From Methylobacter sp. (GTDB lineage: Bacteria; Pseudomonadota; Gammaproteobacteria; Methylococcales; Methylomonadaceae), in assembly GCA_030684815.1 (NCBI GenBank), contig JAUXXQ010000140.1, positions 57,817 to 121,816 on the forward strand: a stretch of DNA of 64,000 bases, given 5' to 3'. Numbering within the stretch: the first letter of the stretch is position 1; every line of letters starts with the position of its first letter. The notes below the pieces were generated by a model. That model was given only the letters and a program-made list of their open reading frames with translations, had not been told where the DNA came from and ran no database searches. Shown here piece after piece: positions 46,678 to 51,764 of the stretch. The translations under genes and the position numbers were made by a program.

Positions 46678-46764
46678 TGGTGCCGAGGAGAGGATTTGAA
46701 CCTCCACGGGGTTGCCCCCACCAGCACCTGAAGCTGGCGTGTCTACCAATTTCACCACCTCGGC
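46678..46764 (-). tRNA. tRNA-Leu(CAG), CCA encoded
   Basis: gccgagg...cctcggcacca acceptor stem; anticodon arm ccagc-ttCAGgt-gctgg; ggttcaaatcc T-loop; long variable arm. Confidence 0.95.
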
Positions 46765-47017: not shown

Positions 47018-49258
47018 ATGACACTAAAGTCTAAAAAAGACGTTGATTTTAATTCAACCAAAGACCCATACGCTCAGCGCGAAGCTGAGAAATATGAAAA
47101 CCCTATCCCTAGCCGCGAATTAATTTTGCAATTAATCGAACATGCAGGGAAGCCTTTGCACCGCGAAGAAATCGCCGAGGCGTTTACGCTTGATAGCGAA
47201 GATCAGCTAGAAGCGCTACGCCGACGATTGCGCGCTATGGAAAGGGATGGGCAGTTATTATTTAACCGGGGTAAAAAATATTGTTTGGTCAACAATGAAG
47301 ATTTAATTGCCGGGCGCATTATCGGACATGCTGACGGTTTCGGTTTTATTAAGCCGGATGACGGCTCTGACGACCTGTTCTTATCGCCACGGGAAATGAA
47401 TCCGTTGTTGCACAATGACAGGGCGCTGGTGCGTGTTGCTGGGGTCGATAAAAAAGGCCGCCGGGAAGGTGCGGTGGTTGAGATTCTGCAGCGGAATACG
47501 CATCAGGTCGTCGGTCGGCTGTATAAGGAAGACGGCTTTACTTATGTGGTGCCGGAAAATAAAAATATAGCACAAACCATTTTGCTGCAAAAAGGCGGTG
47601 CCGGCAAAGCCAAACAAGGGCAAATTGTTGTTGCCGAGATTGTCGAACAGCCGACTAAATTGCGCCAACCTATCGGCCGGATTATTGAGGTCATGGGCGA
47701 ACACATGGCGCCGGGCATGGAAATCGAGATGGCGATTCGCTCCCATGGCTTGCCCAATCAATGGCCTGATGAGTTGCTGGAAGAAATAAAACCGCTGAAA
47801 AAAGAAGTGCCGGAAGCGGCCAAAGAAGGGCGCGTTGATTTGCGCAAAATCCCACTGGTCACGATTGACGGCGAAGATGCCCGCGATTTTGACGATGCTG
47901 TTTATTGCCAAAAAACGCCCAAAGGCTGGAAGCTGTTGGTTGCCATTGCCGACGTTTCACATTATGTGCAGATTAATTCGGAATTGGACAAGGAAGCGCA
48001 AAAACGCAGCACCTCGGTGTATTTTCCTGAACAGGTTATTCCAATGTTGCCGGAGATTTTATCGAATGGCTTGTGTTCGCTGAATCCGCAGGTAGACCGT
48101 TTATGTATGGTTTGCGAGTTGCTGATTAATGCGGAAGGCCAGGTAACGCGGTCGCGTTTTTACGACGCAGTGATGAGCTCCCATGCCCGCCTGACCTATG
48201 ATGAAGTCGCAAAAATGCTGGTTGATGGCGATACTATTTTGGCCGACAAGTATAAAGCCGTGCTGCCGCATTTGCAGGAGCTGTATGCGCTGTACAAAGT
48301 GATGCGGGTGAGTCGCGAGCAGCGAGGCGCGATGGATTTCGACACCCAGGAAACCCGGATTGTCTTCGGTAGCGAGCGCAAAATTGAAAAAATTGTGCCG
48401 GTGGTACGTAACGATGCGCACAAATTGATCGAAGAATTCATGATTACCGCGAACATGGCGGCGGCGAAGTTTTTAAATGGCAAAAAAATGCCCAAGCTGC
48501 TGCGCGTACATGAAGGGCCGGGTACTGAAAAGCTGATGAATTTAAAAGTATTTTTGGGTGAGCTAGGCTTGAGTTTGGCAGGCGGCGACAAACCGACGCC
48601 GTTGGATTATATGCATTTGATGGAATCGATTAAAGGCAGGCCCGATGCGCATTTGATACAAACGGTGTTGCTGCGCTCAATGTCGCAAGCCGTTTACAGC
48701 CCCGAATTAAAAGGCCATTTCGGTCTGGCGTTGGAAGCCTACGCGCATTTTACCTCGCCGATTCGCCGCTATCCAGACTTGCTGGTGCATCGTGCCATCC
48801 GGCATTGTTTGCAAGGCAAACCGGTGGAAAGCTTTTACTACGGCGTTCCCGATATGGTTGTTTTGGGCGAACAGTGTTCCGCCAATGAGCGTCGCGCCGA
48901 TGATGCGACGCGTGATGTGGTGAGCTGGCTCAAGTGCGAATATATGATGGATAAGGTCGGCGAGGAGTTCCCTGGCATTATTTCAGCCGTGACCTCATTC
49001 GGTTTCTTTGTCGAACTGGCGGACATTTATGTCGAAGGCCTGATTCATATCAGCAATCTGGCGCAGGATTATTTTCATTTCGATGCGACCAGCCATCAAC
49101 TCAGAGGTGAGCGCACCGGTATTAATTACCGCTTGGGCGACAGCGTTCAGGTCAGGGTCGTCCGTGTTGACCTGGACGAAAAGAAAATCGATTTTGAGTT
49201 GGCGCAAAAAAGTGCCGCAATGGATAGCAAGCCTAAAAAAAGACGCCGTAAGAAATGA
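47018..49258 (+). CDS. rnr: Ribonuclease R
   Basis: IDGEDARDFDDAVYC, HFTSPIRRYPDLLVHRAI, C-terminal S1 domain and basic tail. Confidence 0.97.
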   Translation: MTLKSKKDVDFNSTKDPYAQREAEKYENPIPSRELILQLIEHAGKPLHREEIAEAFTLDSEDQLEALRRRLRAMERDGQLLFNRGKKYCLVNNEDLIAGRIIGHADGFGFIKPDDGSDDLFLSPREMNPLLHNDRALVRVAGVDKKGRREGAVVEILQRNTHQVVGRLYKEDGFTYVVPENKNIAQTILLQKGGAGKAKQGQIVVAEIVEQPTKLRQPIGRIIEVMGEHMAPGMEIEMAIRSHGLPNQWPDELLEEIKPLKKEVPEAAKEGRVDLRKIPLVTIDGEDARDFDDAVYCQKTPKGWKLLVAIADVSHYVQINSELDKEAQKRSTSVYFPEQVIPMLPEILSNGLCSLNPQVDRLCMVCELLINAEGQVTRSRFYDAVMSSHARLTYDEVAKMLVDGDTILADKYKAVLPHLQELYALYKVMRVSREQRGAMDFDTQETRIVFGSERKIEKIVPVVRNDAHKLIEEFMITANMAAAKFLNGKKMPKLLRVHEGPGTEKLMNLKVFLGELGLSLAGGDKPTPLDYMHLMESIKGRPDAHLIQTVLLRSMSQAVYSPELKGHFGLALEAYAHFTSPIRRYPDLLVHRAIRHCLQGKPVESFYYGVPDMVVLGEQCSANERRADDATRDVVSWLKCEYMMDKVGEEFPGIISAVTSFGFFVELADIYVEGLIHISNLAQDYFHFDATSHQLRGERTGINYRLGDSVQVRVVRVDLDEKKIDFELAQKSAAMDSKPKKRRRKK

Positions 49259-51012
49259 TGAACAAAGAACTTTTTTTTAGCGGCTATATTGATCGAATTG
49301 CCGATAAATTTAGTTTGCAAAAACCGTTTGCGTTTGAGATTTTAGCGATAGCGGCCATTTTGGATTTGAGTTTTGATGAAGTATATGATCATGCGTCCAC
49401 ATTAACAAAAGATAATAGCGGTAATATTAACGGGAGAAATGATGGTGGATTTGATGGGATTTATCTCGAAGAAGATGAGGATGAAAATATATTGCATGTT
49501 TTTCAGATAAAATCATCCGATTCTGTTGGGGATAATGAACTAGCCAAATTCGTTAATGATTTTCGTACTGTCTTTGTTTACGGTAATACGTTAAATTTGC
49601 CTTTGAATGAAAAAGTCAGTTCAGCTTTGCAAATCTATCAAACGTTAGTCAGTTCAGGTAGGGTCGTCGAAACGCGTTTGTATTTTGTGTTTAAGGGTGA
49701 AAAAGCTGGCGCTACAAAACCCCGAATTGATCGTCATGTTGAAAATACCGATAATCTGCAAGTTTTTGATAGCCAGGATTTATATGAACAAATTGATAAT
49801 CTGGTTTCAGAAAGAAAAAAACGCAAGCCTGTTACTTTCAGCTTTATGGCGGAAAAATCAAATATTTCGCTGCGTAGCGATCCCCAAGCGTTAATTTCAT
49901 TTTCTATACAAAATGTCAAAGCGGTAAATTTTCGTTTACCCGCCCTGGAGCTTTGCAAATTGCTAGACTTGGAGCAGCATACAAACAAGCGTATTGATAC
50001 GGTATTTAGTGATAATATTCGTGGTTTTTTACGTTATAACAAAACTAACAAAAATATTCGGGCCACGCTATTAGGCGACGATGCTGAATATTTTCCTTTT
50101 TTAAATAACGGCATTACTATAATTGCTGAGCGTGTAAAAATCCCTAAAGAAATGCAAGTCGGGTTTTATCCGCTTGAGGTAGTTAATCCGGTTATTGTTA
50201 ATGGCTTGCAAACCACGCATGTTATCTATGAGATTTATCAACAAGACTGCAACAAACTAGAAGATATTTATGTGGTGGTTAGGCTGTATGAAACGACCGA
50301 GCCCGAACTTATAGATAAAATTACCGAAGCGACTAATACCCAGTCGCCAATCAATTACCGCGATAAAATAAGTACTCGTCTTTTTAATGAATATACCAAA
50401 GAAATATTTGCTAATGCCGGTATTGGTTATTTAAGTAAACGTGGTGAAACATTTGAAAATAAGCTGAGTATTTCTTTACAAAAATCAGTCCATAGCGAAA
50501 CTGTGCTCAAGTTTTGGTATGCCACATTTTATGAGCAACCAGGGCGGGCAAAAAGTGCCAAGTCTAAGGTGCTTGAGGAACTTTTTGATGCGACAACCAA
50601 CAAGAATAATAAGTTATATCCTTTATTTAATGGCAGCAAAGACTCGCCTATCTATCGACAACTTCTTGAAACATTTTGGATTTATGAGTTTGTTGTGGCG
50701 CAACGCCAAACTCAAAAACATGAGTCAGACTTTGTTTTGTTTGCCGATGAGTTGATTGCCTATGGCATTTATAAGTTAATGAAAAAATCAGGTGGTTTTG
50801 TTAAAGAACGGATGGGCGATTGTTATTCGGCTGTTTATCATGCCATTCCTAAGGGTATAGAGATTGAAAAAGAGGAAAAGGCACAAAGCAAATCGACTTA
50901 TTCACACAATAGCTATTTTAAGTCTTTTAGATCACATTGGCTGCTAAATAAAGAGTTAGCGCTTACTCATTCGCCCAGCGATGACTCAATACCTGATCCA
51001 TTACTTCTGTAA
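49255..51012 (+). CDS. AIPR-family (abortive infection phage resistance-like) protein with PD-(D/E)XK-like N-terminal region
   Basis: FDGIYLEEDEDENILHVFQIKSS nuclease-like signature; AIPR core DNIRGFLRYNKTNKNIRATLL...FPFLNNGITIIAERV...NPVIVNGLQTTHVIYEI. Confidence 0.85.
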   Translation: MMNKELFFSGYIDRIADKFSLQKPFAFEILAIAAILDLSFDEVYDHASTLTKDNSGNINGRNDGGFDGIYLEEDEDENILHVFQIKSSDSVGDNELAKFVNDFRTVFVYGNTLNLPLNEKVSSALQIYQTLVSSGRVVETRLYFVFKGEKAGATKPRIDRHVENTDNLQVFDSQDLYEQIDNLVSERKKRKPVTFSFMAEKSNISLRSDPQALISFSIQNVKAVNFRLPALELCKLLDLEQHTNKRIDTVFSDNIRGFLRYNKTNKNIRATLLGDDAEYFPFLNNGITIIAERVKIPKEMQVGFYPLEVVNPVIVNGLQTTHVIYEIYQQDCNKLEDIYVVVRLYETTEPELIDKITEATNTQSPINYRDKISTRLFNEYTKEIFANAGIGYLSKRGETFENKLSISLQKSVHSETVLKFWYATFYEQPGRAKSAKSKVLEELFDATTNKNNKLYPLFNGSKDSPIYRQLLETFWIYEFVVAQRQTQKHESDFVLFADELIAYGIYKLMKKSGGFVKERMGDCYSAVYHAIPKGIEIEKEEKAQSKSTYSHNSYFKSFRSHWLLNKELALTHSPSDDSIPDPLLL

Positions 51013-51017
51013 TAATA

Positions 51018-51764
51018 ATGAAACCAAGCAAAATATACGGACTACATTCGGTGCAGTCGGCTTTAGATTATTCCCCGAAAAAAATCAATAAAGCCTGGGT
51101 TGACAGCCAGCGGCAAGATAAACGCTTAACGCAGTTAATCGACGATTTATTGGATTTAGGCATAGAGCCGGAAAAAGTCGAACGGAAAAAACTCGATAAA
51201 TTGGCCGACAGCCATAACCATCAAGGCATCGTGATTGAAGTCGATATGCCCGCTGAGTTATCGGAAAGCGATTTAAAAAACGCAGTATTGACGTTAACTG
51301 GAACACCGTTATTTTTGGTGCTGGATAATGTGCAAGACCCGCACAATTTTGGCGCCTGCCTTAGAACCGCCGACGCGACTGGCGTACACGGCGTGATTGT
51401 CACGAAAGACAATGCGGCCGGGATTACCCCGACAGTTTGTAAAGTCGCCAGCGGCGCGGCGGAAACCGTGCCGGTTTATCAAGTGACCAATTTAGCCAGA
51501 ACCTTACGCTGGCTGAAAGAGCAGGGCATTTGGGTGATGGGCGCGGCAGGCGAAACCACGCAGACCGCGTACCAAACCGATTTCACCGTGCCGCTGGCGC
51601 TGGTTGTCGGCGCCGAGGGCAAAGGTTTAAGGCGCCTGACTAAAGAACAATGCGATGTGCTGGTCAAACTGCCGATGCTGGGCAAGGTCGAAAGCCTTAA
51701 TCTGTCGGTTGCGACCGGCGTGTTGCTGTATGAAACTTTGCGCCAGCGCTCGGCTATTGTCTAA
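51018..51764 (+). CDS. rlmB: 23S rRNA (guanosine(2251)-2'-O)-methyltransferase
   Basis: YGLHSVQSAL; LDNVQDPHNFGACLRTADATGVHGVI; VVGAEGKGLRRL. Confidence 0.96.
   Translation: MKPSKIYGLHSVQSALDYSPKKINKAWVDSQRQDKRLTQLIDDLLDLGIEPEKVERKKLDKLADSHNHQGIVIEVDMPAELSESDLKNAVLTLTGTPLFLVLDNVQDPHNFGACLRTADATGVHGVIVTKDNAAGITPTVCKVASGAAETVPVYQVTNLARTLRWLKEQGIWVMGAAGETTQTAYQTDFTVPLALVVGAEGKGLRRLTKEQCDVLVKLPMLGKVESLNLSVATGVLLYETLRQRSAIV

Follow-up and report, generated by a model that had tools for sequence, protein, structure and literature searches.

A putative AIPR/AbiU-type defence effector nested between rnr and rlmB in Methylobacter, at a junction that appears to accept interchangeable compact cassettes

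The window analyzed here, a stretch of 64,000 nt from Methylobacter sp., carries an intact gene of the AIPR family between the core genes rnr and rlmB. Most probably, it encodes a one-protein defence effector of the AIPR/AbiU type that combines a PD-(D/E)XK with an AIPR domain and is carried within the rnr-rlmB operon as a cassette lacking its own promoter, at a hotspot free of recombinases. In the proposed mechanism, cleavage of nucleic acid would fall to the N-terminal PD-(D/E)XK domain, as judged from its fold and residues, while the C-terminal AIPR domain would sense or gate the cutting, perhaps by binding nucleotide or nucleic acid. The putative function of the gene is antiphage. Compact cassettes of this kind would be gained, stacked, decayed and lost at the junction without a recombinase, most simply by homologous recombination through the flanks.

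Table 1. Features of the rnr-AIPR-rlmB region (window coordinates).
Feature	Position	Strand	Evidence
rnr (RNase R), intact upstream core gene	47018..49258	+	Pfam RNB 5.7e-109; 746 aa
AIPR/AbiU-family gene, inserted cassette, 585 aa	49255..51012	+	Pfam AIPR 1e-44; PADLOC AbiU 2.8e-44
ATGA overlap, rnr stop/AIPR start	49255..49258	+	sequence
N-terminal PD-(D/E)XK-like nuclease domain, residues 1-188	49255..49818	+	D63, D67, Q84, K86; model; Foldseek
AIPR core domain, residues 251-504	50005..50766	+	Pfam PF10592; FLNNG, VNGLQTT, ATNTQ motifs
rlmB (23S rRNA 2'-O-methyltransferase), downstream core gene	51018..51764	+	Pfam SpoU_methylase 3.1e-43

An earlier note on this DNA had described an AT-rich reading frame that overlaps the rnr stop codon and ends just before rlmB, and both junctions are present in the sequence (Table 1). 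The AIPR start codon (49255-49257) overlaps the rnr stop codon TGA (49256-49258), the second codon is also ATG, and 5 nt separate the AIPR stop codon from the ATG of rlmB. The rnr product has the same length as in the empty-site homologues of G020 and G012. The difference in composition was equally evident, with a GC content of 36.6% compared to 50-51% for the neighbours (0.366 vs. 0.496 for rnr and 0.511 for rlmB) and a GC3 of 0.32 (0.55 for rnr and 0.58 for rlmB). A scan at and just before the AIPR start, using a consensus that covers sigma-70-type sites only, found nothing promoter-like. The ATGA overlap and the close spacing suggest that transcription reading through from rnr, together with translational coupling, would drive expression of the gene, and it is from overlap and spacing that we infer co-transcription of rnr, AIPR and rlmB. 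A single tRNA gene is present in the window: tRNA-Leu (CAG), on the opposite (minus) strand at 46678-46764, ~250 nt ahead of rnr.

The AIPR gene, the only one found in the whole 4.29-Mb genome, is under strong purifying selection. Compared to the copy in G005 its dN/dS is 0.026, equal to that of rnr, and values of 0.05-0.10 were obtained against more distant copies. The intact reading frame together with this selection indicates a functional gene rather than a chance ORF. However, a fast-evolving defence gene would not usually show a housekeeping-like dN/dS of 0.026, and this counts against the defence reading.

Membership in the AIPR family, proposed in the earlier note from motifs, was borne out by HMM search. 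The Pfam AIPR profile (PF10592) matched residues 251-504 with 153.9 bits, far above the gathering cut-off of 25 (E=1e-44), and also matched 27 of 27 relatives. The PADLOC AbiU profile (PDLC02357), for which PADLOC gives no curated cut-off here, matched with an E-value of 2.8e-44, aligning profile positions 6-467 of 537 with residues 8-496 of 585. When the full-length model was compared with the Foldseek viral library, AIPR, DUF262/GmrSD-N, ParB and DNA-sulfur-modification folds were matched, hinting that a sensing domain of the ParB/DndB type may form the AIPR core. A single-sequence search of solved structures gave no match to the AIPR protein. The only matches in the profile search of solved structures were to ZCCHC8; these were weak and were judged to be due to chance.

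The N-terminus resembles a PD-(D/E)XK nuclease, a reading with moderate support. Across 26 divergent relatives the invariant N-terminal residues are F27, D63, D67, Q84 and K86, and no others. Of the arrangement named earlier (E28, D67 and Q84xK86), D67, Q84 and K86 thus stand, whereas E28 is present but kept only in the near subfamily. The acidic pair D63 and D67 and the Q84xK86 element lie in an alpha-beta core, with helix-strand-strand-helix-helix-strand as the order of secondary structure in the model of this domain. The full-length AlphaFold model matched nothing in the PDB at E<=0.001. A separate model was therefore made of the N-terminal domain (m359fc6e56555; pLDDT 90.4, pTM 0.86), and its fold appeared nuclease-like, as anticipated. 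The best Foldseek matches in the PDB were Nt.BspD6I, FokI, HamA, Card1 and Bse634I. Scores were moderate: the 12 best matches, all restriction-type or defence nucleases of the PD-(D/E)XK fold, had probabilities of 0.63-0.96, E-values of 0.01-0.12 and TMq of 0.26-0.48, with the top matches among them at E 0.01-0.07 and TM 0.41-0.48. The Mrr_cat profile (PF04471) remained below its cut-off of 21 bits for the window protein (13.8 bits) and exceeded it in a relative, the G067 homologue L046 (23.7 bits). Fold and residues together point to a putative nuclease activity.

The close AIPR subfamily, defined by E<=1e-40, occurs in 14 of 311 genomes of the order Methylococcales, and in a class sample of 369 genomes only in the window's own genome. 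It is flanked by rnr and rlmB in the window, G005, G290, G234, G236, G293 and G297; in G295 it adjoins rlmB at a contig start, giving eight genomes with AIPR at the junction, the window included. Genus g32 (G067 and G130) has a 45%-identical copy 40 nt behind rnr, with rlmB elsewhere. In G134 there are two AIPR genes: one follows glyA at a distance of 106 nt, the other an sdhB-like gene at 2 nt. Further close relatives stand behind sugar-nucleotide genes. The sdhB-linked copy (L055, G134:C258, 87-2614) lies upstream of hydrogenase-maturation-like genes. More distant members (58-61%) stand alone in Campylobacterota and Candidatus Marithrix. A search of viral contigs returned no AIPR relatives, and plasmid and phage homologues are remote (<60% identity; 24-33% for those encoded by phages); the lack of close viral relatives also counts against the defence reading.

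The rnr-rlmB junction in Methylococcales is usually empty. By hand count, rnr and rlmB lie close together on one contig in 107 of 151 genomes of the family, with a gap of less than ~300 nt in 99 of these loci and of more than 500 nt in 8. Where it is occupied, the junction holds several kinds of cargo. In G007 the junction carries a HipA-like and HIRAN pair (PADLOC PDC-M03A/B, 3e-43 and 9e-31), and in G019, G031, G245, G239 and G289 an AAA ATPase with a ~190-aa partner. In the two cassettes scanned, the ATPase matched the PADLOC candidate HEC-02A at ~1e-30 and resembled numerous other defence ATPases too; its partner fell in no Pfam family and had only a weak HEC-02B match. In G297 the AAA pair and AIPR are stacked in the order rnr-AAA-partner-AIPR-rlmB; in G171, a close sister of G297, the site shows no more than a degraded remnant of the AAA-partner pair, with rnr kept. 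The AAA cassette also follows rnr in G001, G155 and G103, where rlmB is on another contig. The AAA ATPase and its ~190-aa partner form a candidate defence pair in L071 (G297:C22), L126, L127, L128, L040 and L042. No defence genes were recognised in the 7.5-kb insert of G006, and the gaps of G163 and G023, checked for remnants of known cassettes, showed none that were recognisable. Despite their differing cargo, the loci of G007 (L039) and G006 (L041) have a common short sequence just before rlmB, CACAATCA, hinting at a swap of cargo within an older insert.

Based on these comparisons, the junction appears to be a small hotspot of interchangeable compact defence-type cassettes. It holds AIPR, the HEC-02-like AAA pair and the PDC-M03-like HipA/HIRAN pair, plus one stack of two, although two of these three cassette types are candidate defence systems only. 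The inserts are co-directional with rnr and rlmB and lack a recombinase. At the next junction, rlmB-ccmA, used as a control, 0 of 43 loci had a gap of more than 400 nt, as against 18 of 50 for rnr-rlmB; this is a contrast rather than a frequency, since the locus set is enriched for occupied sites and contains repeats. Most of the genomes compared are drafts.

The earlier note had viewed the gene as cargo inserted into the operon. Comparison with relatives agrees with this view: the gene is far from invariable at the locus, being present in a minority of genomes that are scattered on the host tree built from rnr and rlmB, where 6-7 changes are needed. Alternatively, AIPR might be ancestral at rnr-rlmB in the family and have been lost many times, with no hotspot involved. 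The rnr-rlmB copies do form one clade in the AIPR tree (91/96), and AIPR has diverged to a similar extent as rnr and rlmB. However, most genomes of the window's genus show an empty site in which rnr and rlmB overlap exactly by ATGA (six same-genus genomes, G020, G012, G011, G008, G004 and G021), and several other genera have zero-length gaps, so that repeated losses would have had to restore the exact junction each time. Both observations argue for an ancestral empty junction and a derived insertion. The window copy, moreover, pairs with that of G290, from another genus (85/85), contrary to the host tree, and other cassettes occupy the same spot. The g32 copies behind rnr fall in a separate clade, indicating at least two arrivals behind rnr. 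We therefore consider ancestral presence with repeated loss unlikely. As to how a derived insertion arose, the insert measures 1,759 nt and consists of the AIPR gene only. No att-like repeat pair joins its two ends, and an integrase-borne island was rejected because the insert has neither a recombinase gene nor flanking repeats. This leaves exchange by homologous recombination through the flanking core genes as, most simply, the inferred route; a breakpoint sought as a drop in identity near the insert ends gave no clear signal.

The nesting extends to other core operons. The AAA cassette is found in lpxI-lpxB in L132 (G130, Pfam-checked) and L131 (G113, by similarity), adjoins an lpxB-like gene in G143, lies in mnmA-purB in L134 (G118), and follows lspA in L133 (G167), where only the ATPase was seen. 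A specific functional link of AIPR to RNase R is not favoured, given these sites and the AIPR copies behind glyA and sdhB. The suggestion in the earlier note that AIPR expression might follow RNase R status fares poorly for the same reason: the subfamily also sits behind glyA and sdhB, and another cassette type shares both rnr-rlmB and other operons. A broader version, in which AIPR was recruited to host RNA processing with RNase R and RlmB and its operon placement reflects function, could draw on the two separate AIPR clades directly behind rnr and on a dN/dS as low as that of rnr. Yet most relatives with both rnr and rlmB lack AIPR, unrelated cassettes occupy the same junction, and close AIPR relatives occur behind glyA, sdhB and sugar-nucleotide genes or alone in Campylobacterota, making such a role quite improbable. 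We regard as very improbable a selfish, toxin-like or addictive cassette that hitch-hikes on core operons with little antiphage benefit. While repeated nesting behind core genes would hinder clean loss, as expected of such an element, the AIPR gene has no antitoxin partner, empty sites are clean, and in G171 the other cassette is decaying in place with rnr retained. For the favoured reading, a defence effector carried as an operon cassette, the spread over several core operons suggests that operon nesting is a habit. It is possible, as a tentative extension, that Methylococcales habitually nest promoterless compact defence cassettes, without recombinases, immediately after core-gene stop codons, namely those of rnr, glyA, sdhB, lspA, lpxI and mnmA; this would provide constitutive expression and travel by homologous recombination of the flanks.

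AIPR/AbiU genes have been reviewed as abortive-infection genes often located near R-M systems (PMC3506569, PMC2292703). The window gene resembles this family in profile coverage (residues 8-496 of 585), core motifs and size class, but stands alone in a housekeeping operon rather than beside R-M genes. Its N-terminus is PD-(D/E)XK-like, in contrast to the N-terminal HEPN domain ascribed to AIPR proteins (PMC3506569); HEPN has also been described for AbiU2 (PMC3710099). A HEPN N-terminus for the window subfamily found no support in this analysis. MzaE, the AIPR protein of the MZA defence system, was likewise rejected: the similarity covers part of the AIPR core (NF041935, residues 250-377, E 1.6e-07), with 30.3 bits against a curated cut-off of 1050, and no other MZA genes lie beside the window gene. 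DndB has been linked to AIPR (PMC3506569), and the AIPR core is weakly similar in structure to GmrSD (DUF262), DndB and proteins of the ParB/sulfiredoxin-like fold. Unlike GmrSD and DndB, the window protein has no HNH/DUF1524 effector or adjacent Dnd genes, and its nuclease part is PD-(D/E)XK-like.

In the core defence hotspots of Pseudomonas aeruginosa (PMC10250203), too, the defence genes vary while the core genes on either side are fixed, and the pattern cannot obviously be put down to any one family of mobile elements. The rnr-rlmB site is much smaller (1.7-4 kb, compared to a median of 26 kb for cDHS1), and its defence-type inserts differ in running in the same direction as the flanking genes within a single operon, their reading frames overlapping or nearly so. 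As a further difference, both P. aeruginosa cDHS sites adjoin a non-coding RNA gene (PMC10250203).

Most defence genes have come to light through defence islands and mobile elements. Surveys based on islands would miss compact systems if these also lie singly and co-directionally within housekeeping operons, and looking for core-operon junctions of variable content would then be a simple way to screen for new ones; rnr-rlmB yielded a putative AIPR nuclease, a HEC-02-like AAA pair and a HipA/HIRAN pair. How genes enter operons without recombinases thereby becomes a testable question. Outside Methylococcales, in a class sample of 115 gammaproteobacterial genomes, no defence gene was recognised by eye in the larger rnr-rlmB gaps examined, which contained lipoprotein-, YaaA-, phospholipase D- or thioredoxin-like genes or long rnr tails. 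At loci of other gammaproteobacteria (L142, L144 and L149), a glycine-zipper lipoprotein-like gene, identified by eye, occupies the rnr-rlmB junction.
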